Shown here piece by piece: positions 6,545 to 26,325 of a DNA stretch of 40,354 nt. The stretch is from Synergistaceae bacterium. GTDB taxonomy: Bacteria; Synergistota; Synergistia; Synergistales; 79-D21. The stretch spans positions 1 to 40,354 of the forward strand of contig JAJUIT010000003.1 in NCBI GenBank assembly GCA_029267465.1, given 5' to 3'. Within the stretch, counting starts at the first letter, position 1. The number at the start of each line of letters is the position of its first letter. The translations under genes and the position numbers were made by a program. The notes under the pieces are model-generated. The model worked only from the letters and a program-made list of their open reading frames with translations, was not told the origin of the DNA and made no database searches.

Positions 6545-6571
6545 GCGACTGGTTTTAAGGAGGGACAGACC

Positions 6572-7099: not shown

Positions 7100-7114
7100 G
7101 GAGGGGAAGGACTC

Positions 7115-8371: not shown

Positions 8372-8373
8372 CC

Positions 8374-8874: not shown

Positions 8875-8880
8875 GCCCGA

Positions 8881-8905
8881 GGGCGCGGGGGGACCTCCCG
8901 CGCCC
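8881..8905 (+). other. GC-rich intra-operon hairpin between hydro-lyase small subunit 2 and the IDH-like gene
   Basis: GGGCGCGGG (8881-8889) pairs with CCCGCGCCC (8897-8905); no U-tract. Confidence 0.7.
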
Positions 8906-8941
8906 CGTTGAAACCACCAATTCAAGGGAGGGTAAAGCCGT

Positions 8942-10192
8942 ATGGATATCCGCAACGTTCTGAGAGTGAAAGAGATCAAGCCCCGCTACAAGGTCGCGTA
9001 CATCCCCGGAGACGACTCCGGTTTCGATGTCATGGAAGGCGCCATGATCGTGCTCCAGGCCATGGACAAGGCGTTCGGCCTGCCGATCGACTGGGTGCGG
9101 GCCGACATGGGCTGGTGCATGTGGGCAAAATCCTGCCAGGAATATCCCGAAGGCGACCCGAGGCGCAACACGGTTCCCGAGGAAACGAAGCAGATCCTCC
9201 GGGAGAGCGACGCCGCCCTCATGGCCGCCATCACTTCGAAGGCCGGCGTGAAAGGTTTCAAGTCCGCCATCCTGCAGATGCGCCAGCTCTTTGACCTTTA
9301 CATCAACCTGCGTCCCGCAAAGTCAATGCCCGGGATCACCTGTCCCCTGAAAGGCGACCCGAAGATCGACATCGTCATGTTCCGCGAGAACACCGAGGAC
9401 CTCTACGCGGCCGTCGAGTTCCGACCGACCCCGAAGGAACACTTCGATATGCATCCCGGCATGGCCCGCTTCAAGGACAAGGAAGAAGTCGCCGTTTCCT
9501 GGAAGGTCTTCTCCAAGGAAGGCTGCGAGCGCATCATCCGCGCCGCCTTCGAGTACGCCAAGGCCACCGGCCGGACCAAGGTCGTCTGCGCCACCAAGGC
9601 CAACGTCATCCGCGCCACGGACGGCATGTTCAAGGAGATCTTCCTGAACATGGCGAAGGAATACCCTGAAATCCAGGCCATCGACGAGAACGCCGACGCC
9701 ACCGCCATGTGGCTCATCAAGAACCCCCAGGATTACCAGGTCATCGTTACGCCGAACGTCTTCGGGGACATCCTCTCCGACGAGGCCAGCCAGCTCGTTG
9801 GCGGTATGGGATTCGCCCCCAGCGGCAACATCGGGAAGGACTTCGCCCTCTTTGAACCCAGCCACGGTTCCGTGCCGAAGTACGCCCACCAGTACAAGAT
9901 CAACCCCTGCGGCCTTCTGAACGCCGCCACCATGATGCTCGAGTACCTCGGCCTCGAAGAGGCCGCCAGGAAGCTCGAGGCCGCAATCAGCGCGGTCCTC
10001 GTTGAAGGCAAGGACCTGACCTACGACGTGTTCCGCGACAACGGCGATCCGGACTGGGAGAAGAAGGCCGTCTCGACGCTCGACATGGCCCGTGCCATCG
10101 CCCGAAAGATCCTTCCGGACTACGACAAGCACGATGCCGAAATCTCCGCGAAAGCGAAGGAGATGTGCGCCTGGGAGCACCTGCCCCAGTAA
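8942..10192 (+). CDS. Isocitrate/isopropylmalate dehydrogenase family enzyme, isocitrate dehydrogenase-like with NADP-type residues
   Basis: YIPGDDSG, QLFDLYINLRP, FRENTEDLYAAVEF, TPNVFGDILSDEASQLVGGMGFAPSGNIG, FEPSHGSVPKYAHQYKINP. Confidence 0.9.
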   Translation: MDIRNVLRVKEIKPRYKVAYIPGDDSGFDVMEGAMIVLQAMDKAFGLPIDWVRADMGWCMWAKSCQEYPEGDPRRNTVPEETKQILRESDAALMAAITSKAGVKGFKSAILQMRQLFDLYINLRPAKSMPGITCPLKGDPKIDIVMFRENTEDLYAAVEFRPTPKEHFDMHPGMARFKDKEEVAVSWKVFSKEGCERIIRAAFEYAKATGRTKVVCATKANVIRATDGMFKEIFLNMAKEYPEIQAIDENADATAMWLIKNPQDYQVIVTPNVFGDILSDEASQLVGGMGFAPSGNIGKDFALFEPSHGSVPKYAHQYKINPCGLLNAATMMLEYLGLEEAARKLEAAISAVLVEGKDLTYDVFRDNGDPDWEKKAVSTLDMARAIARKILPDYDKHDAEISAKAKEMCAWEHLPQ

Positions 10193-10214
10193 GTGCGGCA
10201 TTAGCGGACCCCGA

Positions 10215-10241
10215 GGGGCCCACTGCGCCGCGGTGGGCCCC
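10215..10241 (+). other. GC-rich intra-operon hairpin between IDH-like gene and citD
   Basis: GGGGCCCAC (10215-10223) pairs with GTGGGCCCC (10233-10241), extended inner pairing; followed only by TTTC. Confidence 0.7.
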
Positions 10242-10281
10242 TTTCGCATCGCAGAACGAAAACGCGAAGGAGGTTGCAACC

Positions 10282-10557
10282 ATGAAAACCGCACAGGCCG
10301 GAACCGTGGAATCCATGGACTGCCTTGTCACGGTTTCCGAAGCCGAGCCGGGTACGGGGCTTGTCCTCAACCTGGCCGGATCAAGCGTGGCCCGGTTCTC
10401 GAAGGCCATGGAAAAGGCTGTCCGCGAAACGCTTGAAGGCCTCGGGATCCGGGACCTGGCCGTCAGCGTGCAGGACAACGGGGCCCTGGACCTCGTTCTG
10501 AAGGCTCGGCTCGAAGCCGCGGTCGCCCGGCTGAAAGAAGGGGGCGAATCGGCATGA
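10282..10557 (+). CDS. citD: Citrate lyase-type acyl carrier protein (gamma subunit)
   Basis: AGTVESMDC resembles the prosthetic-group attachment region GTLESGD of CitD; DNGALDLVLKARLEAAVAR; starts at ATG 10282 after AAGGAGG. Confidence 0.88.
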   Translation: MKTAQAGTVESMDCLVTVSEAEPGTGLVLNLAGSSVARFSKAMEKAVRETLEGLGIRDLAVSVQDNGALDLVLKARLEAAVARLKEGGESA

Positions 10558-11441
10558 GGCTCCGCAGAACGATGCTCTACCTTCCCGGGAACAATCCCAA
10601 CATGCTTCTTCGCGGCCATCTTTTCGCTCCCGACGGGCTGATCCTGGATCTGGAAGACGCGGTCGCGGTCCGGGAGAAGGACGCGGCCCGCGTCCTGGTC
10701 AGGGACGTCCTGAAGCGCGGGGAGTTCGGCTCCTGCGAGGTCACCGTCCGAATCAACGGGCTGGACACCGAATACTGGAGAAAAGACCTGGAGATGCTGG
10801 TCCCGCTGGGCAGGCTGGACGGGGTGCGGGCTCCGAAGGTCGACGACGCCGCCACGGTCCGGCTCCTGGACGAAGCGCTCAGCGAGATCGAAGAGAAAGC
10901 CGGGATCGAGGTCGGCAGGATCAAGATTTTCTGCCTGCTCGAAACGGCGAAGGGGATCTTCAACACCTACGACATCGCCACGGCCTCTCCGCGAGTGGCG
11001 GCGGTCATCCCGGGAGGCGAGGACTTGACCGCAGACCTTCGCACAAACCGTTCTCCCGAGGGAACCGAGCTCGAAGGAATCCGCAGGTCCGTGATCGTGG
11101 CCGCCCGTGCTGCGGGCGTTGACGCCCTGGACACGGTGTTCCCGAGGATCACCGACGACGAGGGGCTGAGGCGGGAAACGGAATTCATCAAGCAGCTCGG
11201 CTTTGACGGAAAGAGCGTGATCCATCCGAACCAGATCCCGATTATCCACGACGTCTTCACTCCCACGGAAAAGGAGATCGAGCGGGCGCAGAAGATCGTG
11301 GCGGCCGCGAAGGAAGCCGCAGAACGAGGGCTGGGAGCCGTCCAGGTGGACGGACGGATGGTGGACGCCCCCGTGGTGAAGCGGGCTCTCTTCACGCTCA
11401 CCCGGGCGGGGCTCCTGGAGGAGGGAACCGAGCATGCCTAA
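10554..11441 (+). CDS. citE: Citrate/citramalate lyase beta subunit (CitE-like)
   Basis: RRTMLYLPGNNPNML, DGLILDLEDAV, LLETAKGI, KSVIHPNQIPI; ATGA overlap with citD. Confidence 0.9.
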   Translation: MRLRRTMLYLPGNNPNMLLRGHLFAPDGLILDLEDAVAVREKDAARVLVRDVLKRGEFGSCEVTVRINGLDTEYWRKDLEMLVPLGRLDGVRAPKVDDAATVRLLDEALSEIEEKAGIEVGRIKIFCLLETAKGIFNTYDIATASPRVAAVIPGGEDLTADLRTNRSPEGTELEGIRRSVIVAARAAGVDALDTVFPRITDDEGLRRETEFIKQLGFDGKSVIHPNQIPIIHDVFTPTEKEIERAQKIVAAAKEAAERGLGAVQVDGRMVDAPVVKRALFTLTRAGLLEEGTEHA

Positions 11442-12984
11442 AAACATCCTTGGACGCGAGATTCCAGAATTCATCGAAGGGTACGGGGAAACCCAACCCT
11501 TCATGGGAGCAAGTGCGCGAAAACCCGAGGGGAACAGGGCCGGCCCGAAACTTCGTGCAACTTTTGGCGACTGCACCAGCAAGGTCATCCCCGACCTGAA
11601 GGCCGCCATCGCCGCTTCCGGCCTGAAGAGCGGCATGACCGTGTCGTTCCACCACCACCTCCGTAACGGCGACTACGTGGTCAACGCCGTCATCGATGCC
11701 TGCGCCGAAATGGGCATCCGGGACCTGACCCTCTTCCCGACCGCCCTCTTCGGGGTTCACAAAAAATTGATCGAACACATCAAGAGCGGGGTCATCCGGC
11801 GGATCATGGGATCGGTCAATGGCCCGATCGGACAGATGGTTTCGGAGGGCGGGATGGACGTCCCCGTGGTCCTTCGCAGTCATGGAGGGCGTCCCAGGGC
11901 TGTCGTCTCGGGGGATGTGAAGATCGACGTGGCCTTCATTGCCGCACCCACCGCCGATGCCTACGGGAACATCTGCGGCTCCCAGGGGAAATCGGCCTGC
12001 GGCTCCCTTGGCTACGCCTTCACGGACGCGATGTACGCCGACTGCGTCGTGGCCGTGACGGACAACCTGGTCCCCTTCCCTGCCGCCCCGGTTTCCATCC
12101 CGCAATACTACGTCGATATCGTTGCCGTCATGGACAGCATCGGCGACCCGGCGGGCATCGTTTCCGGCACGACGAGAATCACCCGGGACCCCCTGCGCCT
12201 CCTGATTTCCAAGTACGCTTCCCGCCTGATCGAGGCCAGCCCCTACTTTAAGGACGGGATCAGCTTCCAGACCGGTGCCGGCGGCATTTCCCTTGCGGTC
12301 ACCGCATTCATGAAGGAAGCCATGAAAAAACGGGGAGTGCGGGGCAGCTTCGGTCTGGGCGGCATCACGGGGTACTTCGTGGACCTGCTCAAGGAAGGCT
12401 ACGTCGAGAAACTCATGGACGTCCAGTCCTTTGACCTCGAGGCCGTGAAATCCATCGCCGAGAACCCCAACCACATCGAGATTTCGGCTGACTGGTACGC
12501 TAACCCCTGGAACGCCGGAACGGCGGTCAACATGCTCGACGTGGTCATCCTGGGCGCCACGGAGATGGACCGGGACTTCAACGTCAACGTCAACACCGAG
12601 GCCGACGGCGCGCTGCTGCACGGGATCGGCGGACACCAGGACACCGCAGCGGGGGCCAAGCTCACCATCATCAGCCAGCCCCTGCTCCGGGGACGCATCC
12701 CCTGCGTGGTGGACAAGGTCTATTCGGTCACGACGCCCGGGGAAGTTGTGGATGCCCTGGTCACCGAGTACGGCGTCACGATCAACCCGCGGAGGCAGGA
12801 CCTCATCGACGCCTGCAAGGAGGCCGGGAACGTTCCCCTGGTCTCCATGGACGAACTCATCGCCCGGGCCCACGAGATGTGCGGACCCGCGGACCCCGTG
12901 GAAACGGAGGACCGCATCATCGGCGTCATCGAGTGGCGGGACGGAACGGTCATCGACGTCGTCCGGCAGTTGAAGAAAAAGTAA
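11434..12984 (+). CDS. citF: Citrate lyase alpha subunit (CoA-transferase subunit, CitF-like)
   Basis: SFHHHLRNGDYVVNAV, GSVNGPIGQMVSEG, APTADAYGN, GGHQDTAAGAKLTII; overlaps citE by 8 nt. Confidence 0.92.
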   Translation: MPKNILGREIPEFIEGYGETQPFMGASARKPEGNRAGPKLRATFGDCTSKVIPDLKAAIAASGLKSGMTVSFHHHLRNGDYVVNAVIDACAEMGIRDLTLFPTALFGVHKKLIEHIKSGVIRRIMGSVNGPIGQMVSEGGMDVPVVLRSHGGRPRAVVSGDVKIDVAFIAAPTADAYGNICGSQGKSACGSLGYAFTDAMYADCVVAVTDNLVPFPAAPVSIPQYYVDIVAVMDSIGDPAGIVSGTTRITRDPLRLLISKYASRLIEASPYFKDGISFQTGAGGISLAVTAFMKEAMKKRGVRGSFGLGGITGYFVDLLKEGYVEKLMDVQSFDLEAVKSIAENPNHIEISADWYANPWNAGTAVNMLDVVILGATEMDRDFNVNVNTEADGALLHGIGGHQDTAAGAKLTIISQPLLRGRIPCVVDKVYSVTTPGEVVDALVTEYGVTINPRRQDLIDACKEAGNVPLVSMDELIARAHEMCGPADPVETEDRIIGVIEWRDGTVIDVVRQLKKK

Positions 12985-13049: not shown

Positions 13050-13583
13050 TCACGGGCGGGGGAAAAACCAGATCGCCCAGAGGTTGCCGAGAAAATGGTA
13101 AAGAATGGACGGAGCGATGTCCCCGTGTCTCAGCCGGAGCGCTCCCATGACCAGCCCCGGGAAGAAGGTGAGCAGGTAGAAGGGGTCGGACCGGAACACC
13201 AGGTGGGAGAGGGCAAAGAGGACCGAAGCGCCCAGGACGGCCAGCAACGGGGAAAGAACCCGGGCCAGCAGCGTCTGGACCCAGCCCCTGAAAAACACTT
13301 CCTCGGAAACCGCGGCAACAAGACCGGCAGAGGCGAAGGACACGACGACCCGGAAGGGCACGACCCGCGGCCAGTCCTGGGAGGGCCAGCCCACGAAAAC
13401 CGCCGCCGTCAGAGGAGCCAGGGTCAGGGTTGACGCGATCAACGACTCGGCGATCGCCCGCCTGCCGGGGCGCAGCGCCAGTCCGTATCGCTCAAGCGGT
13501 TCTTGCCGGGCCATGGCCCAGAGGTAGGGTCCGAACAGCATCACGGCCACGGCGACAAGAGGTCCAAGCATGCCCGGAATCAC
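13050..13583 (-). CDS. CPBP/CAAX-type (glutamic-type) intramembrane protease
   Basis: Motifs SEEVFFRGW, FALSHLVF, ILYHFLGN; multiple TM segments; GTG start overlaps the stop of the upstream Lgt-like gene (GTGA). Confidence 0.88.
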   Translation of the reverse strand: MIPGMLGPLVAVAVMLFGPYLWAMARQEPLERYGLALRPGRRAIAESLIASTLTLAPLTAAVFVGWPSQDWPRVVPFRVVVSFASAGLVAAVSEEVFFRGWVQTLLARVLSPLLAVLGASVLFALSHLVFRSDPFYLLTFFPGLVMGALRLRHGDIAPSILYHFLGNLWAIWFFPRP

Positions 13584-14368
13584 CGGTTTTTCCTCCCCTC
13601 CCGGCTGCCAGCCCTGATTCGTGAAAGCGAGAATCCCAGCCAGAGAACGCCGAGCAGGAAAACCCCCAACCCCCAGGCCCTTGCCGAGGGCTCATCAAAA
13701 ACACCGTCCCCCCGGAACGGATCGACGACCAGGCGGACAAGCCCGTATCCGGCAAGAAATCCCGGCCAGAGGACCGCGACAGCAGGTCGTTCTTTTCCTG
13801 CAGAACCCAACTGGTTTTCGGTCCAGGCCAGAAGGGAAAGGAGCAGCACTCCCCCGGCCGATTCGTACAGCTCCGTCGGGTGCCTCAAGATCCCCGGGGG
13901 ATCGAAGGGGAAATGCACCGCCCAGGGCACCGCGGCCAGCTTCCCGTAGCAGCAGCCGTTCAAGAAGCACCCCCAGCGCCCCAGGGCAATGAGAGCCGCG
14001 GCCGGCAGGCTCGCGGCTTCAGCCAGGGACCAGAGGGGAATTTCCCTTTTCCTGAGAACAATCCAGGCCGTAAGCCCCCCGCCAAGGATGGCGGGAAGGG
14101 CGGAAAGTCCTCCTTCCCAGGGGCGCAGCAGCTTTTCCGGGTGCGCCGCGCTGGCCTCCCATTCAACCAGGATGTTTCCCAGGCGCGCCCAAACGAGGAT
14201 CCCCAGGAACCCCCAGAACAGGACAACGCGGACGTCCTCGTCTTCCAGACCGTAAAGCCGGACAGCACGCTTTCGGGTCCAGGTGAGGGCAAGCGCCAGG
14301 ACCAATGCCCAGATCACGGTATAGGTGTCGAGGACTGCGCTCCCCATCCTGAACAGCACTGGATGCAT
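13580..14368 (-). CDS. Prolipoprotein diacylglyceryl transferase family protein (Lgt-like, GRWGCFLNGCCYG variant)
   Basis: GRWGCFLNGCCYG, HPTELYES, GYGLVRLVVDPFRGD; start assigned to ATG 14368 (MHPVLFRMG). Confidence 0.85.
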   Translation of the reverse strand: MHPVLFRMGSAVLDTYTVIWALVLALALTWTRKRAVRLYGLEDEDVRVVLFWGFLGILVWARLGNILVEWEASAAHPEKLLRPWEGGLSALPAILGGGLTAWIVLRKREIPLWSLAEAASLPAAALIALGRWGCFLNGCCYGKLAAVPWAVHFPFDPPGILRHPTELYESAGGVLLLSLLAWTENQLGSAGKERPAVAVLWPGFLAGYGLVRLVVDPFRGDGVFDEPSARAWGLGVFLLGVLWLGFSLSRIRAGSREGRKNR

Positions 14369-14415
14369 CCGATCCCCCCAGGTCCAGCCGCGGAAAGTTT
14401 CGACCGGTGCGGATA

Positions 14416-14445
14416 TTGTACCCTTTTCCCGGGGAAGGCTATACT
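14416..14445 (+). promoter_or_regulatory. Candidate sigma70-type promoter for the subtilase-T2SS operon in the divergent intergenic region
   Basis: TTGTAC (14416-14421), 18-nt spacer, TATACT (14440-14445). Confidence 0.55.
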
Positions 14446-14487
14446 GAAACTTGGCAGGGAGTTCAGCTCGCCCCGGGAGGGATCGAT

Positions 14488-16302
14488 TTGCGACACTGTT
14501 CCATGAAAAGATTAACGGCATTGACGGTGGCGGTCGTTTGCCTTGTCTTCACCCTGGCGGCGTGGACCGGCTTTTCGAAAAGCGGAGATGCCGGGGAAAG
14601 ACTTCCCCGGGGAGCCTCGTTCGTCCCGGACGAAATCCTCGTCCAGCTCAAACCCGGCTACCGGCTGGAAACCGTGCTTTCAGCCCTCCCCATGCAGCTT
14701 GTCGCGGAGGAACCCGGGAAACCCGCACCTCGCGGCCTTGCGAGGCTGAAGATCCCGCGGGGAGAGACGGTCATGAACGCGGTATCGCTTCTGAAAGGGA
14801 AAGAAGGCGTCCTCTTCGCCCAGCCCAATTACGTCTACCGGGCCGCCGTTTTCCCGGACGACCCCAGCTACCCCAACCAATGGGCCCTTCCGAAAATCGG
14901 GGCCCCGACCGCCTGGGACCTGGCCACCGGCAGTTCGGACGTCCTCGTCGCCGTCCTCGACACGGGGGTTGACCTCAGCCACCCGGACCTTGCGGGCAAC
15001 CTCTGGACAAACCCGGATGAAATTCCCGGAGACGGCCTGGACAACGACGGCAACGGGTACGTCGACGACGTCCACGGCTGGAACTCGTCCGCCAATTCCG
15101 CGGATGTCCAGGACGATTTCGGGCACGGCACCCACGTCGCCGGAATCATCGGCGCCGTGGGCAACAATGGAACGGGCGTCGCCGGCGTGAACTGGAAAGT
15201 CGGGATCATCGCCGTCAAGGCAAACAAGGGGGACAGCTTCACCACGCTGGATCTCGCCAGGGGAACCGGCTACGTCACGGCCCTCAGGACGGGCAAGGGC
15301 CTGCCGATCGTGGCCGTCAACGCTTCCCTGGGAGCCGCCGTGTCCGAGGATCCCCTGCTGAACCAGGCCATCATAAATGCCGGCGAGGCAGGCATCCTTT
15401 TCGTCGCGGCTGCCGGCAACGACAACAGCGACAACGACCGGACGCCCTTCTACCCCTCCAGCCTGTTCAGGCCGAACGTGCTGTCGGTCGCCGCCACGGA
15501 CGAGAACGATGCCCTCGCGATCTTCAGCCTCCTCACTAACGAGGGCTCGAATTACGGACGACGGACCGTTCACCTTGGAGCCCCCGGCAAGTACATCGAG
15601 AGCACCTACTACTTCATAAGTACAAGCGCCGATACCCCGAGCGGTTATGAGAGACTAAGCGGGACCTCGATGGCGGCACCCCACGTGACCGGCATCCTGG
15701 CCCTCCTGAAGGCCCAGGATCCGAGCCGGGACTGGATCGCCCTGAAAAACAGGGTGCTTTCTACGGGAACCCCCTTGTCCGGCCTATCCTCGAAAACCAT
15801 AACGGGACGGCGCCTCCTGGCGGCCGGGGACGGTGCCTTAGGCGCCCTGACCGGAAGCGGCCAGACGGTGAAGTCCCGCCTTCGGCCCATCCCCGACAGC
15901 CTGGACCTGGAACAGGGAACGTCGCTGGACCTTGCCGCCCTGAACATCTCCGGGGAAGAATCCCTGGGGGACCTCCCCGTTTCGATCACCCGAAACGGAG
16001 CTTCCTACGGGACCCTCACCCTGAGGGACAACGGGACCGGGTTCGACCAGGCAGCGGGAGACGGGATCGCTTCCGCGACCTGGACGGTCCCCTCGTCGGC
16101 GAACAGCACCTACGTCTTCGCCTTCCCGGACGGGAACCTGACGGTGACGGTCGATCTCGCTGAAGAACCCCCCGCCCCGTCCGGCGGAGGCGGAGGGGGC
16201 GGCTGCAGCGCGGCCGGCGGCCTGGGACCGTTTTTCTTTCTCTGCATCCCAGCCGCACTCTTCGCCCTGAAAAGGAAGAAACCCGCGCCGCCTGACCGAT
16301 GA
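14488..16302 (+). CDS. Subtilisin-like S8 serine protease with signal peptide, propeptide and C-terminal sorting-type tail (Synerg-CTERM-like)
   Basis: Catalytic blocks VLDTGVDLSHPDL, GHGTHVAGII, SGTSMAAPHVTG; tail SGGGGGGGCSAAGGLGPFFFLCIPAALFALKRKK; TTG 14488 after GGGAGG, alternative ATG 14503. Confidence 0.92.
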   Translation: MRHCSMKRLTALTVAVVCLVFTLAAWTGFSKSGDAGERLPRGASFVPDEILVQLKPGYRLETVLSALPMQLVAEEPGKPAPRGLARLKIPRGETVMNAVSLLKGKEGVLFAQPNYVYRAAVFPDDPSYPNQWALPKIGAPTAWDLATGSSDVLVAVLDTGVDLSHPDLAGNLWTNPDEIPGDGLDNDGNGYVDDVHGWNSSANSADVQDDFGHGTHVAGIIGAVGNNGTGVAGVNWKVGIIAVKANKGDSFTTLDLARGTGYVTALRTGKGLPIVAVNASLGAAVSEDPLLNQAIINAGEAGILFVAAAGNDNSDNDRTPFYPSSLFRPNVLSVAATDENDALAIFSLLTNEGSNYGRRTVHLGAPGKYIESTYYFISTSADTPSGYERLSGTSMAAPHVTGILALLKAQDPSRDWIALKNRVLSTGTPLSGLSSKTITGRRLLAAGDGALGALTGSGQTVKSRLRPIPDSLDLEQGTSLDLAALNISGEESLGDLPVSITRNGASYGTLTLRDNGTGFDQAAGDGIASATWTVPSSANSTYVFAFPDGNLTVTVDLAEEPPAPSGGGGGGGCSAAGGLGPFFFLCIPAALFALKRKKPAPPDR

Positions 16303-16913
16303 GCCGCGTGGGACAAAATCCCGGAAAGGGTTTTACCCTGGTCGAGGTTCTCGTGGCCATCGGTTTGATGGGCCTGGTGTCGGCGCTCGCCCTCGGGCCT
16401 TTGGCTGCTTTGACCGTAAGGCTGGAAGCGCTTCGGGCGCAGTATGCCGAAGAAGCGGCCCTTTCGTCGGCGCTTTCAGGCATCGCCGCGGACTGCCGGC
16501 AAATCCTCCCTCAAGGGGGAGATGCCCCCTTCCGGACGATCCGGAGAGAGGTCCTCGGGGGGGGCAGGAAAGATGTTCTCCTGGTCTGGACAGGGGCCCC
16601 CCTTTCCAGAAACCAGCCAGCGGCTACCGAGGTTTTTTCGATCGCCGACACCGGCCCCTTCCGGGAGCCGATCCAGCCGGGGCTGTACCGCTGGACCCTG
16701 GCGGGGACCCTCCCCGCGGACGTCAGCCCGGAGCGCCTGGACCCCAGGAAGGCGACCCTCCTGGTGAAAGGGGCGGATCGCTTTTCCGTCTCGGTGTTTG
16801 ACGGCAAGGAATGGGTCGAAGATTATTCCGGACCGGTTCCCCCGGGAGTGGCGCTTGGAATCTCAAGAAGGGGGGTCGAGGCCTCCCATGTGGACACGGT
16901 GCTTTCCTTCTAG
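16299..16913 (+). CDS. gspJ: Type II secretion pseudopilin, GspJ-like
   Basis: Prepilin motif GKGFTLVEVLVAIGLMG; ATGA overlap with the subtilase stop. Confidence 0.75.
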   Translation: MSRVGQNPGKGFTLVEVLVAIGLMGLVSALALGPLAALTVRLEALRAQYAEEAALSSALSGIAADCRQILPQGGDAPFRTIRREVLGGGRKDVLLVWTGAPLSRNQPAATEVFSIADTGPFREPIQPGLYRWTLAGTLPADVSPERLDPRKATLLVKGADRFSVSVFDGKEWVEDYSGPVPPGVALGISRRGVEASHVDTVLSF

Positions 16914-17817
16914 CGGGAGGCGGCAGGGCTTCGTCCTCGTCGCCGTCCTGATGGCTGTGGCTGTGCTCGTGACGGGAGCGCTCGCCTTTGCCTGGTTTTC
17001 CAGGATGGAGGTCCGCAAGGCGGAAGCTCTCGCCTTCTCGCTCGAGGCCCGAAGCCTGGCTGAAACCGCCGTATGGGAAATGAAACGGGGGCTTGTCCTG
17101 GATTCGAACGGCTCGGATTCCCTCCTGGAACCCTGGTTCGGGACCTGGCCCCTTCCGGTGGAGGGAAACATCGCCGTTCTCGTGCGCCTGGTTCCGAAAA
17201 ACGACGCGTTGCCGGTGAATTCGCTTTTTCTCCCGGACGGGATCACCCTGAGGCGCGAGTTGGAGATCCCCTGGCAAAGGCTCTGGGAGGAGCTGAAAAG
17301 ACCGGAGCTCGCCGAAGACCTGCTGGATTTCCTTGACAGGGACACGACCCCGAGAGCCGGGGGCCGCGAAGATCCACCCTTTCTCAACCGGCCCCCTTCT
17401 TCCCTGGAGGAGTTGCGCCTTTTCCCGGGCATTGACGAAACGCTCTACAGCGGGAAGAATGAAAAAATCCCGAAAGGGTTGGAGGATTTCCTGACCGTCC
17501 ACAGCGATGGGCGGATTAACGTCAACGTCGCGGCTCCCGGAGTCCTGGAGCTCCTCGACCCGACCCTCACCCCGGCCGTGGTCCGGGAGATCCTCGAAAG
17601 GAGAAACGGGGACCCCCTGTCCGGATGGAACGACCTCTCCGCTCTTCCGGGATTCCCCGCGGGGCTGGAACCGCGGCTTTCGGGTCTTCTGTCTTTCGCC
17701 AGCTCGCATTTTCTGGCACAGATCGAGGTTCGAAAGGGAAACCTCGTTCGACGTTTCGAGGCCGTGCTTCTCAAAAAGGAAAACCGCTGCACGGTCATCG
17801 CCTGGAAGGAGATGTAG
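16888..17817 (+). CDS. gspK: Type II secretion protein GspK-like
   Basis: RRQGFVLVAVLMAVAVLVTGALAFAWF leader followed by a large C-terminal domain with LEELRLFPGIDETLY; ATG 16888. Confidence 0.8.
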   Translation: MWTRCFPSSGRRQGFVLVAVLMAVAVLVTGALAFAWFSRMEVRKAEALAFSLEARSLAETAVWEMKRGLVLDSNGSDSLLEPWFGTWPLPVEGNIAVLVRLVPKNDALPVNSLFLPDGITLRRELEIPWQRLWEELKRPELAEDLLDFLDRDTTPRAGGREDPPFLNRPPSSLEELRLFPGIDETLYSGKNEKIPKGLEDFLTVHSDGRINVNVAAPGVLELLDPTLTPAVVREILERRNGDPLSGWNDLSALPGFPAGLEPRLSGLLSFASSHFLAQIEVRKGNLVRRFEAVLLKKENRCTVIAWKEM

Positions 17818-17823
17818 CGGGGC

Positions 17824-18906
17824 ATGAAAGCCGAATTGACGGGTGGAAAACTCCCCTGCCGTTTCGTCACCCCGGAAGAAATGTCGTTCCATCCCTTTTC
17901 CTTCCCCTTCAGCGATCCGGCCCGCATCCGCCAGGCCCTTTTGCTGCAGCTCGCTTCCCTGATGGGGGAGGATTCGAAGCGGTTGCACCTGTGCCCGGTG
18001 GTTTTCCAGAGAGAAAAGGAAAGGACCCGGGGAGTTGCTCTGGTCTATCCGGATGACCTGGACAAGGGGCTGGAAAAAGGCGGAGAAACGCGCCTTTTTC
18101 CGGCTCCCCTAGCTTTCGGTGCGGCCCTCGACGGTTCAGGCCTCGGTGTTTGGGCCGACGAAAGCCACGTGTCGGCCGTCCTCTGGCGGGAGGGGATCCC
18201 AATCCTTTACCGCTGCGTTTCGCGGGCCGAGGCCGAACCCCAAGAGGTGATCGAATGGGTTCGGTCCTCTTCGGGAGAATCGGATTTCCCCGTCTTCCTC
18301 TTGGACAGCCGCGTCCTTCCCGATGCGGCGGAGCGCCTGGAGGCAGAGGCCCGGCGGACCTGGGCCGCCTTCCCTGCCCTCGCCCCCCTGGACCTTTCCC
18401 CCCGGCGCATGGAATCAGCCCTGCGGATCGAGCACCTTTCGGCCAACCTCAAACCCGCCCTTTCCGCCGGCCTGGTCCTGGGAATTCTCTTTTTGGCCGC
18501 TTCCGCCCTTTCCGCCCTTTCCGCCCAAAACCGTCTCGAAGCCTATGAAACGGCCTCCATCCGGCTTTACCGCGAGGTCTTCGACCCCACCGGCCCCGTT
18601 CGCGACCCCCTGAGCCAGGCTAAAGCCCGCCTGGCCGCCGTTTCCGGTACGGAGGAAAACGACGGGCTGATCCAGGTTTTCGCCATGCTGGGACGGGCCT
18701 GCCAGAAATCCGGTGAGGGGATCGTTCTCGATACGCTGCGATACTCCCAGAGACAGACGGAATTGACCGGCAAGGGACCATCCGTGGAGGCCGTCCGGGC
18801 CTTCCAACAGGCCCTGGAAGCCGGGGAAACTTCGCTCGAGGATCTCCAGCAGCTTCCCGCGGGACAGTACCGCTTCAAAATCATCGTCAGGGGGAAAAAC
18901 CAGTGA
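17824..18906 (+). CDS. gspL: Type II secretion GspL/PilM-like assembly protein
   Basis: Position after gspK and single TM near residue 220 preceding a periplasmic domain; weak sequence-level recognition. Confidence 0.6.
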   Translation: MKAELTGGKLPCRFVTPEEMSFHPFSFPFSDPARIRQALLLQLASLMGEDSKRLHLCPVVFQREKERTRGVALVYPDDLDKGLEKGGETRLFPAPLAFGAALDGSGLGVWADESHVSAVLWREGIPILYRCVSRAEAEPQEVIEWVRSSSGESDFPVFLLDSRVLPDAAERLEAEARRTWAAFPALAPLDLSPRRMESALRIEHLSANLKPALSAGLVLGILFLAASALSALSAQNRLEAYETASIRLYREVFDPTGPVRDPLSQAKARLAAVSGTEENDGLIQVFAMLGRACQKSGEGIVLDTLRYSQRQTELTGKGPSVEAVRAFQQALEAGETSLEDLQQLPAGQYRFKIIVRGKNQ

Positions 18907-19418
18907 AGACGCCCTGGAAGGAGCTCATCGCCCGGCTTGGTCCATCCGCTTCCGGGGACGAGGCCATCCAGCGGAGGACGCGGATCTTGGCCATGGCGGT
19001 CCTGGTCTTTTTCCTCTGGGGAACCGGTTTGCTCCTCCTTGACCGTGCCCGTGAAACCGAAAACCGCATCGCCCTGGCGGCGGCCCGATTCTCCAGCCTG
19101 GCGAAAACCTCCCAGGCCTACCGGGCCCTTGTGCCCTCCCGCGCCGCGGGGAAAGCCATCAGCAACCCGGCGGATCCTCTTGCCGCTGCCTCGGAAGCGA
19201 TCGACCGGCTGCAGGTCAAGGATCGCCTGAAAAGCCTTTCAAGCTCCAGCCGAGGGGTTTCCATCGAACTGGAGGGACTCGGACAAAAGGAAACCCTTTC
19301 TTTGATCCGAGAGTTGAAGAAAGCCCGGCTGGCCGTTACCGCCGCCGAGATTCGCGCCCTGCCGCTTGGCGGGAAGAGGAGCCTTTCCGTGACCCTGCTT
19401 TTGGGAGGACAGCCATGA
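18903..19418 (+). CDS. gspM: Type II secretion GspM-like protein
   Basis: Single N-terminal TM, coiled/ferredoxin-like C-terminus, overlaps the GspL-like gene (GTGA). Confidence 0.6.
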   Translation: MKTPWKELIARLGPSASGDEAIQRRTRILAMAVLVFFLWGTGLLLLDRARETENRIALAAARFSSLAKTSQAYRALVPSRAAGKAISNPADPLAAASEAIDRLQVKDRLKSLSSSSRGVSIELEGLGQKETLSLIRELKKARLAVTAAEIRALPLGGKRSLSVTLLLGGQP

Positions 19419-20017
19419 ACCGCCCTCGGATCTCGGCCATAGGAACCACACTCGCCCTGCTCGCGGCTTTTCTCCTGGGAGCTTTCTGGGCTTTTCCCTG
19501 GGACCGGCTGGCGGAAACGATTCTTGAAGAAGCCTCGCGAAAAGCGACAGCCGCAGGATTTCGTCTGGACCAGGGAACCGTGCGGACGAACTCCCGCTTT
19601 CCCCTTGAGGTTGAGATCCGGGAGGTTTCGCTGGCGAACGTCCTGGGCTCGGTTCGGGCTCCTTCGGTCAAGGTCCGGCTGAAGCCTCTCGTCTTTCTTA
19701 CCCGGATGGCAGCGGGCCTGAAACTCGAAAGCCAGGCAGCCCGGCTCGAGCTTCCAGGGAGCCGACCCCTGGCCCTGACAGGGATCAAGGCTGATTTGGA
19801 TTTCTCCCGTTCGGAAGCCCGGATTCGCACCCTTTCTGTCGGTGGAGACCTGGGCCTTTCAGGAACGCTGACCTGGTCTTTCAACAGAAAACGGCTCTCC
19901 TTCACGGACCTGTCGATCCGGGCCCCCGAGAGCCTGGACCCCGGGTTGAACCTTCTCCGCTTCTCCATCGGCCTCCGGCCCGAAGGAAGCGGTCAGTGGA
20001 GGCTGAGAGTTCCATGA
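19415..20017 (+). CDS. gspN: Type II secretion GspN-like protein
   Basis: N-terminal TM and LPGSRPLALTGIKADLDFS; position in operon. Confidence 0.55.
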   Translation: MNRPRISAIGTTLALLAAFLLGAFWAFPWDRLAETILEEASRKATAAGFRLDQGTVRTNSRFPLEVEIREVSLANVLGSVRAPSVKVRLKPLVFLTRMAAGLKLESQAARLELPGSRPLALTGIKADLDFSRSEARIRTLSVGGDLGLSGTLTWSFNRKRLSFTDLSIRAPESLDPGLNLLRFSIGLRPEGSGQWRLRVP

Positions 20018-20895
20018 GACTGACTCGGCTTGATTGGGCTTTTCCATGGAGGCTCCTTTACAGGATTTTGGCCGCCTTTCTTTGCGGCGTCCTTTTCGCC
20101 AGGCTCTCCGGCCTGTTTCTGGACGGCTTCGCCGCGAAACGGCGTTTCGAGCGGGCCCTTCGATCCGATCCCGCCGCCGCTCAACTGGAAGACAGAAGCT
20201 CCCTGGAGAACGATCTCGAAGCCTTCCTTGGGCGCAATCCATTCTCTCTTGAAGGAGAGGACCCCTCAACTCGTGGCCTGTCCGGGGAAATCCGGCTCCT
20301 GGGTACCTTCCCTCCCCTGGGAGCCCTTTTCGCGGTGAACGGAAGTACCAGGGCGGTCCTGGCGGGCCAGAAAATCGTGGGCGAAACCCTGAAAAAAATC
20401 GAGGGAACGCGCGCCGTCCTTGAAGGACCCGGCGGGACCCGCGTCCTTGAAGTTCTCTATGCGGGAGTGGGGGGGGACTCCCCCGCTTTTGTTCCGCCGC
20501 CTGCCTTTCCCACGGGAAGGGAACCGCGAGGCGTCTTCGACCCGAAACGGGGAATCCGGGGACCTTCCAACGGGCAGGAGGGAACCATCGAAAGGGACCT
20601 GATCAACAAACTCCTGATGGATCCCTACCAGGAACTGAACCGGGTCCGATTCCGACCGAAGATCGGGGAGGACGGAACCGCCCGGGGAATCGAGGTCCAG
20701 TGGCTTCATAAAGACAGCCTGCTTTCGGCCGTCGGAATCCGTTCCGGGGACGTCATCCATTCGCTGAACGACATTCCCATCCGAACGACCGCGGATATCG
20801 TGAACGCCATCAACTCCCTGCTGAACAGCGACCGGTTCGTTGTGTCCTTCTTCCGGGAAGGGACGGACTCGCAGGTCGCCTACTCGGTAAAATGA
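20014..20895 (+). CDS. gspC: Type II secretion GspC-like protein with PDZ domain
   Basis: N-terminal TM; C-terminal VQWLHKDSLLSAVGIRSGDVIHSLNDIPIRTTADIVNAINSL PDZ-like motif; ATG 20014 overlaps gspN stop. Confidence 0.8.
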   Translation: MRLTRLDWAFPWRLLYRILAAFLCGVLFARLSGLFLDGFAAKRRFERALRSDPAAAQLEDRSSLENDLEAFLGRNPFSLEGEDPSTRGLSGEIRLLGTFPPLGALFAVNGSTRAVLAGQKIVGETLKKIEGTRAVLEGPGGTRVLEVLYAGVGGDSPAFVPPPAFPTGREPRGVFDPKRGIRGPSNGQEGTIERDLINKLLMDPYQELNRVRFRPKIGEDGTARGIEVQWLHKDSLLSAVGIRSGDVIHSLNDIPIRTTADIVNAINSLLNSDRFVVSFFREGTDSQVAYSVK

Positions 20896-21233
20896 AGGAA
20901 AAGAGAACATTCCGCCGGGGAGGCTTCACCCTGCTGGAAGTGTTAGTCGCTGTTTCAATCATGGGCCTTGCGGCGGCCGGAGCCCTGAGACTGGTCTTTC
21001 TTTCGGAGAAAGCCCTGGATGAAGCCCGCCAGAAACGTCTTTTCATCGAGGAAGTTTCACGGCTGCGTCTCGACCTGCTTTACGGAAGGGCCCCGGACAA
21101 CGGCAAAAGCGGCGACCTGTTCTGGGAAACACGCCGCGTTAGCCGCCCTTTTCTGGACAACCGCTGGGATATCCGGTACAGGACGGTGTCGGTCAAATCC
21201 AAAACCCGCACCATGGAACTGATACTTCCCTGA
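20892..21233 (+). CDS. Type II secretion pseudopilin, GspI/H-like
   Basis: RRGGFTLLEVLVAVSIMGLAAAGALR prepilin motif; 113 aa. Confidence 0.75.
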   Translation: MKEKRTFRRGGFTLLEVLVAVSIMGLAAAGALRLVFLSEKALDEARQKRLFIEEVSRLRLDLLYGRAPDNGKSGDLFWETRRVSRPFLDNRWDIRYRTVSVKSKTRTMELILP

Positions 21234-21247
21234 GGGAGGGGATTCTC

Positions 21248-23218
21248 TTGCACCGTAAGCGTCATCCATTCATATCCTTCATCCTGTTTCTCGTCATCGT
21301 GGCTGCCGGAACGTCTGTCGGCGGACCCTGCCGGGGCCAGACCCCCCAGGACGAAGGCAGCCTCGTCGAAGCCGCAAGGGCAATGCGAAACTCGGGATCC
21401 GTCCAGTTCAATTTCCGGGACCTGGATCTCGGCACCTTTATCCGGTTCATGTCAGAGCTGCTGCAGGAGAACATCCTCATCGATCCTACCGTGAAGGGGA
21501 CGGTTACGGTGGTTTCGCCGAGAGCCCTCAGCCTGCCGGAGGCCCGACAGGCGATGCTCTCGGTCCTGGAAATGAACGGACTTTCGCTCCAGCGAACGGG
21601 AACGTACAGCAAGGTCGTTCCAGCATCCAAGGGCCAAAGCACCGATTACGCCGTCCGGAAGGGAAGGGTGGGCCCGGGGTTTGGGGAGAGCTTTGTCACA
21701 CAGATCGTTCCGCTGGATTACGTTTCCGCGTCCTTCGTTGCGGATGGGATCAAAGCCGCCATGAGCGGCGAGGTGGGAGTCGCCCCCATGGCCAGCGGGG
21801 CCAAGGTCCTCCTCATGGGGAAAGCGACGGCGATCCAGAAGGCGCTGGGAGTCATCAACGCCCTCGATGCCGCCGACAGCCTGAAGAACAGCAGGACCGT
21901 CGATATTCGGAACACCACTCCCTCCTCCCTTGCTTCCCAGTTGACAGCGATGGCCAAAGACCCGGCTTCCCCCCTGGCCGGGCTTTTGGCCGTTCCCGAC
22001 GACGCTTCGCGCAAACTCGTCCTGATCGGGGAAAAACGCGTTTTCGGCGAAGCCCAGAAAATCATCCGGGAGCTGGATATCCCTGCCCGCGCAGGGCAGT
22101 ATCACGTGGTCCCGCTGAAAAACACCGACGCAAGAATCATGGCCGAGAAACTGAGCACGATTCTTTCCACCGCCTCAAAGCTTCAGCCTGACCAGAAAGG
22201 GGCCCTCCCCGCCAGCGTTGTGGCGGACCCGGGGACGAACAGCCTGATCTTCGTGGCGGAAGACGCAACCGCGAGAAACATCGAGGCGATCATCCAGAAG
22301 CTCGACATCCAGCCCAAGCAGGTTTTTATCCGGGGCCTCATCGCCGAGGTCAACATGACCCGGCTGAACAACGCCGGGATCGACTGGGCCACCTGGGGAG
22401 GAGCCATCACCGGCGACGCCGTGCTGGCCGGCCAGGCCGCGCTGGGCAACCCGACGGGAATCCCCTCGGAGTTCGTCAACTGGTTCCGGGACCTGACCCG
22501 GGTTGAGGAAAAGGAATACGACAAGAACGGGAACCTGGTCACCACGACGAAATACGAGGGGAAATCGCTCATCTACGCCACGATCAACATGCTGAAGAAA
22601 TACGACGCCATCAACGTGCTATCCATGCCGAGGCTTCTTTGCACCGACAACATGGAAAGCGAGCTGCAGGTCGGCCAGGTGATCCCCCAGCTCAAATCGA
22701 AGCTGGCGGATACGACCAACCCGAGCGCCGTCCAGAACAGCTACGATTACAAGGACACGGGACTCATCCTGAAGGTGACCCCCCACGTGCGAAGCGGAAA
22801 CCTGGTCGCCCTGGAGATCGACCAGACCGTGGAAGACGTTCTCACACCCATGACCGTGAACACCCCCACCACGTCCAAGCGCCAGATCAAGAGCAACGTC
22901 ACCGTCGGGGACGGACAGACCATCGTCCTTGGCGGGCTCATCAAGGAATCCGAAAAGTCCGTCAAGTCGAGGGTTCCAATCCTGTCCTACATCCCTCTCC
23001 TCGGGGACTTCTTCAAGAGCGCGGCAAAATCGCGCGAGAAGATCGACCTGTTGATCTTCCTGACGCCCCAGATCCTCGAGACCCCTGAAGAGGCGAGCCT
23101 TCTGACGAATCAGATTTCCAATTCGTCGGGCGACGTGGAAACCCAGCTGACCGAGATGGAGCGCCTCTATAAACAGAAGAACGACGCCCTTTACAGGCAG
23201 GGAGTGAAAAACCAGTGA
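21248..23218 (+). CDS. gspD: Type II secretion secretin GspD
   Basis: Signal peptide, N-domains, VTVGDGQTIVLGGLIKESEKSVKSRVPILSYIPLLGDFFKS secretin signature; TTG start after GGAGGGG. Confidence 0.95.
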   Translation: MHRKRHPFISFILFLVIVAAGTSVGGPCRGQTPQDEGSLVEAARAMRNSGSVQFNFRDLDLGTFIRFMSELLQENILIDPTVKGTVTVVSPRALSLPEARQAMLSVLEMNGLSLQRTGTYSKVVPASKGQSTDYAVRKGRVGPGFGESFVTQIVPLDYVSASFVADGIKAAMSGEVGVAPMASGAKVLLMGKATAIQKALGVINALDAADSLKNSRTVDIRNTTPSSLASQLTAMAKDPASPLAGLLAVPDDASRKLVLIGEKRVFGEAQKIIRELDIPARAGQYHVVPLKNTDARIMAEKLSTILSTASKLQPDQKGALPASVVADPGTNSLIFVAEDATARNIEAIIQKLDIQPKQVFIRGLIAEVNMTRLNNAGIDWATWGGAITGDAVLAGQAALGNPTGIPSEFVNWFRDLTRVEEKEYDKNGNLVTTTKYEGKSLIYATINMLKKYDAINVLSMPRLLCTDNMESELQVGQVIPQLKSKLADTTNPSAVQNSYDYKDTGLILKVTPHVRSGNLVALEIDQTVEDVLTPMTVNTPTTSKRQIKSNVTVGDGQTIVLGGLIKESEKSVKSRVPILSYIPLLGDFFKSAAKSREKIDLLIFLTPQILETPEEASLLTNQISNSSGDVETQLTEMERLYKQKNDALYRQGVKNQ

Positions 23219-24696
23219 GCGAAACGGGCTTCGACCCCGAGGAAATCCTTTCTCTCATCCCGGAAAACCTGAGCCTCGACACCCTCCGGGGGGCCGGAGT
23301 CCTTCCGCTGCGCAGGGAGGGAGACTCCCTGGTGCTGGCCGTCTCGTCCCTGGAAACCTACGGCAACGCCCAGCTCCTCTCCCGGTCCTTCGAAGGGAAA
23401 ATCCGGATCGAGATCGCCGATCCCGCCCTGATGAACGGGCTTTTTGACCGCCTGTACACCCTTCGGAGCCGGATCGCCTCGGACGACCTCGAAGCCATCG
23501 AAGGAGTCCTGGACCTGGACACGGTGGCCCGCGAGGACATCCAGAGCGACTCGGTCTCCGCACCGGTGATCCGCCTCGTGAACAGCCTTCTCTTTGAAGC
23601 CGTGAAGGAGAGGGCGACGGATATCCATGTCGAACCCTTCGAGGACCGCTGCGAGATCAGGTTCCGGGTGGACGGCGTCCTCCACGAAAAGCTGAGCCTT
23701 CCGAAAACCCACCAGGCCCCCCTGACGACCCGGATCAAGGTCATGGCCCGCATGGACATCTCTGAACGGTTCTCTCCACAGGACGGGCGGATCGGCATAT
23801 CCGTGGGCGGCCGCTCCGTGGACATCCGGGTCGGATCGGTGCCCACCCGGCATGGAGAAAGGCTAGCTCTCAGGCTCCTGGACAAGAGACAGGGGCTTTT
23901 AACGCTGGACCAGCTCGGCATGCCGGAAAAAAGCAGGGCGGCCCTGGAGGGAATGGTTTCAAGGCCGTACGGGATGATCCTCCTGACCGGCCCCACGGGG
24001 TCTGGAAAGACGACGACCCTTTACGCCATCCTGCAAAAACTCGCTCGGCCCGAGGTGAACATCATCACCGTCGAAGACCCGATCGAATACGACCTGCCGG
24101 GTGTCGGGCAAATCCAGGTGAACGAAAAGGCCGGGGTCACGTTTGCCTCCGCCCTCAGGGCCATCCTGAGACAGGATCCAGACATCATCATGGTGGGCGA
24201 AATGCGGGATTTCGAAACCGCTCACATGGGAGTCCAGGCTTCCCTGACGGGCCATCTCGTGCTGTCGACCCTCCATACCAACGACGCCCCCAGCGCAGTC
24301 GTAAGGCTGGCGGACATGGGAGTGGAATCCTACCTGGTGGCAGGCTCACTCCTGGGAGTCGTGGCCCAGCGCCTTGTCCGGCGCACCTGCCCATCCTGCT
24401 CGGCCGAGGCTGAAGCCCCTCCCCCCTTTCGGAAAGCGGGGATCGAAACCGTCCAAAGGGGCACCGGCTGCGAGCAATGCCTGGGAACCGGTTATTATGG
24501 CCGCTTCGGCCTTTATGAACTGCTGGTGATGGACGACTCCCTCAGGGAAGCCGTTTCGAAAGGCGCCTCCTCTTCAAAAATCCGGGAACTCGCCAGGGAA
24601 AGGGGATTCAAAACCCTCTGGGAGGCGGGACTGAAAAGGGTACGGCAGGGCCTGACTACCCCCGAGGAACTGATCCGGGCGGTCGGGGAGGCTTAA
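23215..24696 (+). CDS. gspE: Type II secretion ATPase GspE
   Basis: Walker A GPTGSGKTTTLYAIL, DPDIIMVGEMRDFETAHMGVQASLTGHLVLSTLHTND, CPSC...CEQC zinc motif. Confidence 0.97.
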   Translation: MSETGFDPEEILSLIPENLSLDTLRGAGVLPLRREGDSLVLAVSSLETYGNAQLLSRSFEGKIRIEIADPALMNGLFDRLYTLRSRIASDDLEAIEGVLDLDTVAREDIQSDSVSAPVIRLVNSLLFEAVKERATDIHVEPFEDRCEIRFRVDGVLHEKLSLPKTHQAPLTTRIKVMARMDISERFSPQDGRIGISVGGRSVDIRVGSVPTRHGERLALRLLDKRQGLLTLDQLGMPEKSRAALEGMVSRPYGMILLTGPTGSGKTTTLYAILQKLARPEVNIITVEDPIEYDLPGVGQIQVNEKAGVTFASALRAILRQDPDIIMVGEMRDFETAHMGVQASLTGHLVLSTLHTNDAPSAVVRLADMGVESYLVAGSLLGVVAQRLVRRTCPSCSAEAEAPPPFRKAGIETVQRGTGCEQCLGTGYYGRFGLYELLVMDDSLREAVSKGASSSKIRELARERGFKTLWEAGLKRVRQGLTTPEELIRAVGEA

Positions 24697-24700
24697 ACCG

Positions 24701-25861
24701 ATGCCGAGATTTCGCTACACAGCATACGACGTTCAGGGGAAGCCGGTGACGGGAGAGCTGGAAGGAATCAGCGAGGGCTCCGCGGTGCAGGCCCTTCGGA
24801 AGGAGGGGCTGGTTCCCGTGGAGCTTCGCGTGCTGGCGGACCGGCACGGGGCTTCCCGAAAAAGGGGGGAACAGGTTCCTCTCGAAGACCATTTGCTCTT
24901 CTGCAGGAGCCTTGCCGGTTACCTGAGAGGCGGCTTAACCCTGAGCCATGTCCTGGTCCTTTTGGGGAAACAGTCCCCGAGCGAAAGCCTGCGGGAACTT
25001 TACAGCGGCCTGAAGGCGGAAGTCGAGGCGGGAAAGAGCCTGGGAGCGGCGATGCGGGAATCCCGACGATTCAGGGGGGACCTGGTTGGGATGGTGGAAT
25101 CCGGGGAACGGAGCGGATCCCTTCCCCAGGTCCTGGACAGAGCCGCCCGCCTTTACCGGCTGGAAATCAGCCTGCGCAGGCGGGTGCGAAGCGCGCTCAC
25201 CTACCCCCTCGTCATGTTCGGGGTCGGAACGGTCGTGGTGGTTTTCCTTCTGACCTATGTCGTTCCGAAGCTTTCGGCCCTTTTTGCCGACATGGGAGAA
25301 AGCCTTCCGCTTCCAACAAGGCTTCTGCTCTGGCTGTCTGCCTTTCTAAAATCCGCAGGAATCCCTCTCCTCCTCGCAGCGACGGCATTCCTGCTATTCC
25401 TGGGACGAAAAAGATCCCTGCTTTCGAGACTCCCGTTCAGGGGCTTGAAGGAACGCATCACCTTATCCCTGGTCTTTTCGCACCTTGCGACTCTCCTGGA
25501 TTGCGGGATCCCTCTTGTCCAGGCCCTTTCAATGGTCGCCCCGATGGATCCGGCCCCGGGAAGATGGGATTCGGTCTCGGAGAGAATCCGGAAAGGGTAC
25601 CGGCTTGGACAGGCTCTCCACGACGAAGGTTCCTTCCCGGAAGACGCCGTCTACATCGTCCAGGTGGGAGAAGCCGGTGGGGAGCTGTCCGAAGCCCTCC
25701 AGCAGGTAGCGGACAACAGCTGGGAAATCGCCGAAAACCGAATGGCGCGGCTGGCTGACCTCGTCGAACCGGCAATGGTCCTCGCCCTTGGCGCGATCGT
25801 GGGATTTGTCGTCGTTGCCATCCTCCTGCCGATCTTCGATCTGTCGTCTCTCATCCGGTAA
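24701..25861 (+). CDS. gspF: Type II secretion inner-membrane protein GspF
   Basis: RYTAYDVQGKPVTGELEG, MVESGERSGSLPQVL, VGEAGGELSEALQQVA. Confidence 0.96.
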   Translation: MPRFRYTAYDVQGKPVTGELEGISEGSAVQALRKEGLVPVELRVLADRHGASRKRGEQVPLEDHLLFCRSLAGYLRGGLTLSHVLVLLGKQSPSESLRELYSGLKAEVEAGKSLGAAMRESRRFRGDLVGMVESGERSGSLPQVLDRAARLYRLEISLRRRVRSALTYPLVMFGVGTVVVVFLLTYVVPKLSALFADMGESLPLPTRLLLWLSAFLKSAGIPLLLAATAFLLFLGRKRSLLSRLPFRGLKERITLSLVFSHLATLLDCGIPLVQALSMVAPMDPAPGRWDSVSERIRKGYRLGQALHDEGSFPEDAVYIVQVGEAGGELSEALQQVADNSWEIAENRMARLADLVEPAMVLALGAIVGFVVVAILLPIFDLSSLIR

Positions 25862-25896
25862 AACGAATGAAAAACAAAACCAAGGAGGTCCTTCTT

Positions 25897-26325
25897 GTGA
25901 GAGAAAAACGCAGAAGCGGTTTCACCCTTGTGGAGATTCTCGTCGTGGTGGTGATCCTGGGGCTGCTGGCCACCCTGGTGGTCCCCCGGGTTGTGGGAAG
26001 GGGAGAAGAAGCCAAGCGAACCGCGGCCCTCGTGCAGATCCGGTCAATCGAGCAGGCCCTGGAACTCTACAAGCTCGATAACGGCTTCTACCCCTCCACG
26101 GAGCAGGGACTCGAGGCCCTCGTGACGCGGCCTTCAGGAACGCCTGAACCGCAGAATTACCGGGACGGCGGCTACATGAAGAAGATCCCCCTGGATCCCT
26201 GGGGGCGGCCGTACATCTACCGCTGCCCGGGAGAACACGGGGAAACGGACATCCTCTCCCTCGGCCCGGACGGAGAGGAAGGCGGGGAAGGAAAGAACCG
26301 GGACATTACCAACTGGGAGGAATGA
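25897..26325 (+). CDS. gspG: Type II secretion major pseudopilin GspG
   Basis: RRSGFTLVEILVVVVILGLLATLVVPRV, LDNGFYPSTEQGLEAL, PLDPWGRPYIY; GTG 25897 after AAGGAGG preferred over track start 25867. Confidence 0.95.
   Translation: MREKRRSGFTLVEILVVVVILGLLATLVVPRVVGRGEEAKRTAALVQIRSIEQALELYKLDNGFYPSTEQGLEALVTRPSGTPEPQNYRDGGYMKKIPLDPWGRPYIYRCPGEHGETDILSLGPDGEEGGEGKNRDITNWEE

Follow-up and report, generated by a model that had tools for sequence, protein, structure and literature searches.

An lgt-mrtS gene pair beside a type II secretion operon in a Synergistaceae bacterium, a candidate module for C-terminal lipoprotein processing

The window, a 40,354-nucleotide stretch of a Synergistaceae contig, carries an Lgt-family diacylglyceryl transferase gene (lgt, 13580..14368, minus strand, ATG start), assigned from PF01790, its predicted fold and alignments, and mrtS (13050..13583, minus strand, GTG start), which encodes a Synerg-CTERM-type glutamic intramembrane protease of the CPBP (Rce1-like) family (NF040589, PF02517). 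The lgt stop and the mrtS start share four nucleotides (GTGA, 13580..13583, minus strand), which makes translational coupling likely. A short intergenic region (14369..14502) separates the pair from a divergent operon and may place both units under shared control. This operon begins with the presumed substrate, a secreted subtilase (14503..16302, plus strand) with a signal peptide, an S8 domain (PF00082, 169.6 bits) and a C-terminal sorting tail. The subtilase ORF reaches back to a GTG at 14407, but the ATG at 14503 is the likely start because the signal peptide begins directly after it. The Synerg-CTERM-type tail, SGGGGGGGCSAAGGLGPFFFLCIPAALFALKRKKPAPPDR (16180..16299, plus strand), has its Cys codon at 16204-16206; the ortholog from the relative G009 ends in a tail of this kind. 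The original prediction of an Lgt-family gene and a CPBP gene overlapping by 4 nt and divergent from a secreted subtilase was borne out by the ORF coordinates and by the PF01790, PF02517 and PF00082 matches, and the subtilase C-terminus that it quoted (Gly run, Cys, transmembrane helix, basic residues) agrees letter for letter.

What had been missed is that the subtilase heads a type II secretion system (T2SS) operon, with eleven T2SS genes after it (16299-26325), the first of which overlaps the subtilase stop (ATGA). All on the plus strand, these comprise a pseudopilin in the gspJ position, gspK, gspL, gspM and gspN (16299..20017, NCBIfam), a PDZ protein in the gspC position and then a pseudopilin (within 19996..26325), gspD (21248-23218), gspE (23215-24696), gspF (24701-25861) and gspG (25867-26325). 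T2SS_L_SYNERG scored above its cut-off, T2SS_M_SYNERG and T2SS_N_SYNERG just below theirs, and T2SS_GspK below. The block from citF over mrtS-lgt to the subtilase and gspJ...gspG is syntenic in G009 (locus L103), where an additional tail protein lies 3' of gspG (L103 3799-5560). Within the genus, the subtilase, T2SS, lgt and mrtS form a single conserved block. Elsewhere in the window, positions 5267-12984 hold a citrate metabolism cluster encoding two aconitase-family proteins, an isocitrate/isopropylmalate dehydrogenase, a CitE-like lyase and CitF (citrate lyase alpha). A secreted protein with two rhodanese domains (2053-3630) carries at its N-terminus the sole lipobox-like match in the window, which more probably marks cleavage by signal peptidase I.

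MrtS matched PF02517 and the NCBIfam equivalog NF040589, named 'Synerg-CTERM system glutamic-type intramembrane protease', the latter at 216.7 bits against a cut-off of 130, and the CPBP motifs EExxxR, FxxxH and HxxxN are all intact in its sequence. For the window tail, no curated Synerg-CTERM tail model was among the matches listed up to E=10. A profile built here from nine tails recovered six tails in the source genome, three of which lay outside the profile and scored E values of 4e-11, 9e-10 and 7e-9. In the phylum-wide count, five tails were scored in the source genome, and 139 of 188 genomes carried tails at E<=0.001. When no Cys was demanded in G009, a Cys stood directly after the G/S run in seven of eight tails, the eighth appearing non-coding. 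The tail is therefore not a chance feature, since a profile lacking them finds other source-genome tails and the Cys recurs in those seven of eight. In fetched tail loci, again with no Cys demanded, it followed the G/S run in 27 of 29, these loci having been chosen by a Cys-containing profile. MrtS with its Synerg-CTERM tail is an already named, known system.

The Lgt matched PF01790 at 141.7 bits (cut-off 24.9) and the prolipoprotein Lgt equivalog TIGR00544 at 107.1 bits, under its cut-off of 118.9. Its predicted fold (pLDDT 91) had a single significant PDB match, E. coli Lgt (5azb, E=1.8e-10, TM-score 0.79). The window protein, whose signature is GRWGCFLNGCCYG, keeps the equivalents of E. 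coli Y26, R143, G154, R239 and R246 in alignments and lacks H103, N146 and E151. Throughout the Synergistales Lgts, which form one clade in the Lgt tree (100/100), the phosphatidylglycerol-site residues R143 and R239 and also Y26 are kept, the HGGL motif is lost, and N146 and E151 have become Cys; the Lgts of outgroup families f11 and f12 are still canonical. A role in lipobox peptide binding has been proposed for HGGL (PMC4728403), and the altered active site would fit a changed peptide partner. Counted against a changed partner are the wide distribution of the GCC motif and the occurrence of N146C and of other residues at H103 in distant Lgts (PMC13251419). Y26, H103, R143, N146, G154 and R239 are essential in E. 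coli Lgt (PMC13251419), and the missing H103 and N146 were counted against action on the tail. A plasmid search for relatives returned distant Lgts, canonical where inspected. The GCC-type signature was also tried as a marker of C-terminal Lgts and rejected: an Lgt was found in 76 of 80 pattern loci, from many phyla, and a myxosortase above cut-off in only 9 of 49 GCC-pattern genomes, all titled Deltaproteobacteria or myxobacteria. The GCCYG motif, put forward earlier as such a marker, was found in Clostridia, Bacteroidetes and further groups that have no myxosortase above cut-off.

The PF01790 search found one Lgt over cut-off in the source genome, so that the window Lgt is not, as first supposed, additional to a housekeeping copy. 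LspA was not found in this genome (93.6% complete) with PF01252, nor with a profile built from 14 LspAs of the Synergistota, which picks up the known positives and turned only one presumed negative into a positive (G040). It was likewise not found by these searches in the four other members of the genus (g1), in all five g7 genomes, or in g30, g31 and g36. With LspA gone in this genus, lipidation of the tail is therefore probably the only job remaining to its Lgt. It is unlikely that this protein is instead an ordinary N-terminal prolipoprotein Lgt whose adjacency to mrtS is incidental, as might be suggested by the single Lgt in nearly every genome of the order, by the housekeeping-like yidC-jag neighbourhood in much of the order, and by the presence of LspA in 103 of 139 Lgt-positive genomes. 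The five LspA-free genera just named and the loss of HGGL argue otherwise, as does a lipobox test, which gave 1 of 353 genes in G009 (a 400 kb sample) against 1 of 388 in G010, which has no Lgt. The same test gave 0 of 358 in the LspA-positive G020 and 1 of 242 in G025, and it recovered six of eight known E. coli lipoproteins from three control regions, one of them picked as lipoprotein-rich. Lipobox proteins are thus at background level in the sampled Synergistota, since rates in Lgt-positive genomes are no higher than in G010. N-terminal lipobox proteins seem very rare in the sampled loci of G009, G020, G025 and G002, even where LspA is present.

It could also be supposed that the Lgt lipidates an N-terminal lipobox Cys and that MrtS replaces LspA as signal peptidase, since Lgt and an intramembrane protease have been kept where LspA is absent. 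This is very improbable: lipobox proteins are too few against the 1 to 36 C-terminal tails of each LspA-free genome that keeps Lgt and MrtS, and it is a C-terminal tail that the homologue MrtX was shown to cut (PMC11980579).

An assignment of the Lgt to the tail Cys was favoured by its distribution. Lgt, MrtS, LspA and tails were scored in 183 genomes of the order, and the co-occurrence of Lgt, MrtS and tails, for which a survey had been proposed, was found across this set, LspA-minus genomes included. All four were present in 92 genomes, Lgt, MrtS and tails without LspA in 24, and none of the four in 36. Among the 76 LspA-minus Synergistales, counts (both, first only, second only, neither) were 24/11/3/38 for Lgt and MrtS (Fisher 2e-8) and 31/4/4/37 for Lgt and tails (Fisher 1e-12), both values being uncorrected for kinship, and 26/1/9/40 for MrtS and tails. 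Eight genera retain Lgt, MrtS and tails in LspA-free form (g1, g7, g24, g30, g31, g36, g46 and g47), and in six others neither the three enzymes nor tails are present (g2, g11, g28, g29, g34 and g39). The lgt gene typically follows yidC-jag in the order, lies against mrtS in g1, and in two g41 genomes it and mrtS diverge, 231 and 331 bp apart. Since LspA is present in most Synergistales, service of the Lgt to the tails cannot be shown there; their single Lgt may, and probably does, serve both the N-terminal and the tail pathways.

Several departures from co-occurrence are incomplete assemblies. The firmest exceptions, which count against the proposed role of Lgt, are G006 and g8. G006, of the same genus and 91% complete, has three strong Synerg-CTERM tails and no Lgt, MrtS or LspA was found in it; one assembly gap could remove both Lgt and MrtS. 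The Aminobacterium-like g8 (G029-G031) has Lgt without MrtS or LspA, and two of its three genomes are without tails. Its Lgt is the longest branch in the Synergistales clade (1.17), which would fit relaxed constraint. In G029, which is without MrtS, LspA and tails, the Lgt lies behind yidC-jag (L144 1498-2274). Outgroup Synergistota with a canonical Lgt have GGGCSA tails and a CPBP protease of about 100 bits to MrtS, below the cut-off (L237 16956-19998 and G002:C3:131102-131560), possibly a further Mrt subtype.

A comparable pair was found outside the phylum. In the pattern-scan locus L298 ('Deltaproteobacteria bacterium'), a second Lgt gene overlaps that of a myxosortase-family protease (Mrt_core 113 bits, cut-off 100). 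The order at L298 371-6568 (G206:C15) is lgt1, a probable N-terminal lipoprotein, ileS, lspA (identified from its motifs), lgt2 and the myxosortase. At this locus, enzymes for N- and C-terminal lipoproteins share one neighbourhood. The second group was taken as 46 genomes of the phylum-level group of G206, and myxosortase-type matches were obtained in 40 of these (37 above cut-off, three strong partial or lower). An Lgt lay immediately upstream on the same strand in 39 of the 40, at a hit-to-hit spacing of 347-591 nt, and the 40th gene lies at a contig end. A further Lgt was present elsewhere in 37 genomes with the pair, and no Lgt was found beside the other CPBP genes of the group (0 of 33). 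The MYXO-CTERM model at E<=0.01 matched 14 of the 46 genomes, all eight Myxococcales-type controls and no other control. That such tails were found in just part of the second group counts against the proposed pathway. This second occurrence of the Lgt-Mrt pairing, in another phylum, also argues against an incidental adjacency of an ordinary Lgt to mrtS. A single Mrt-linked Lgt clade was considered and rejected, as L298 lgt2 falls far away from the Synergistales clade. For the same reason, the pairing has probably arisen independently and more than once.

Taken together, the locus is suggested to carry out the processing steps of a C-terminal lipoprotein pathway in which Lgt would lipidate the tail Cys and MrtS would cut, a reading given a probability of roughly 0.7 from sequence comparisons. 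The subtilase would cross the inner membrane by Sec and be held by its C-terminal helix (N-out/C-in), so that the tail Cys would sit on the outer surface of that membrane. Lgt could then move diacylglyceryl from phosphatidylglycerol onto this Cys, MrtS would cut C-terminal to the lipidated Cys and release the helix, and the neighbouring T2SS would export the tailed protein. C-terminal cleavage by MrtX was shown in Myxococcus, and in E. coli, an Lgt-bearing host, MrtX likewise cuts the tail, with the invariant Cys required (PMC11980579). T2SS dependence of MYXO-CTERM proteins has been reported, and Lgt is a candidate only, an Lgt-like step having been proposed for an acyltransferase that 'remains unidentified' (PMC11980579).

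MrtS might alternatively need no partner and act on a Cys tail without lipid, or it might be a transpeptidase, with Lgt in some other operon role; for MrtX, Guo 2025 (PMC11980579) left room for cleavage without prior modification, or for modification of the substrate by MrtX itself. This is considered quite unlikely, as it would leave unexplained both the retention and pairing of Lgt with Mrt in LspA-free lineages and the duplication of Lgt beside Mrt in another phylum. Lgt is thus most likely the lipid transferase of the tail, because it co-occurs with the tails without LspA and is paired again in the second phylum. The original interpretation is supported in part: its mechanism, Lgt and then the CPBP protease, receives strong, if indirect, backing from the LspA-free Lgt/MrtS/tail genomes and from the phylum-wide Lgt-myxosortase pair, lipidation and cleavage being the steps that we infer.

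MrtS was already known as the Synerg-CTERM protease and Lgt as the suspected acyltransferase of the sister MYXO-CTERM system. What is new is a genome with one Lgt and no LspA, an Lgt that tracks MrtS and tails even without LspA and is lost with them, and the Lgt-myxosortase gene pair in an unrelated phylum-level group. Which acyltransferase serves MYXO-CTERM-type sorting has been raised as an open question (PMC11980579), and the lgt-mrt pairing puts a specific gene forward. LspA-free Synergistota are natural test organisms, and lgt-mrt is a compact gene pair to express. A wider proposal, of a complete mirror image of the N-terminal lipoprotein pathway, is moderately favoured: in LspA-free Synergistota Lgt would have been wholly given over to the C-terminal Cys of proteins exported by the T2SS, MrtS being their peptidase; a second phylum would have acquired, independently, an Lgt paralogue dedicated to its myxosortase; and Lgt would serve generally as the acyltransferase for Cys-type C-terminal sorting signals in bacteria. 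If true, the role of Lgt, a proposed antibiotic target, would be widened from N-terminal to C-terminal lipidation.

Among known systems, the locus shares with Synerg-CTERM/MrtS an equivalog protease match, a three-part tail with Cys and the same phylum; the published descriptions found include no acyltransferase, whereas the window has one in the operon and a T2SS adjoining. Rhombosortase, of the GlyGly-CTERM system, is a rhomboid serine protease, unlike MrtS, and no Lgt is known to take part in that system. GlyGly-CTERM nevertheless resembles the present case in having a C-terminal anchor tail on T2SS-exported surface proteins (PMC3237569, PMC11980579). MYXO-CTERM/MrtX of Myxococcus xanthus has in common a CPBP protease, a Cys tail, T2SS export and a proposed Lgt-like step (PMC11980579), and the window differs in the linkage of lgt to the protease gene and in the absence of LspA. 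Compared with the N-terminal Lgt/LspA pathway, the window genome is without LspA, the sampled relative has no visible lipobox substrates, and H103, N146 and E151 of the Lgt are replaced; the Lgt fold (5azb), the catalytic Arg pair and the logic of lipidation followed by cutting are alike, with the Cys on the C-terminal side.
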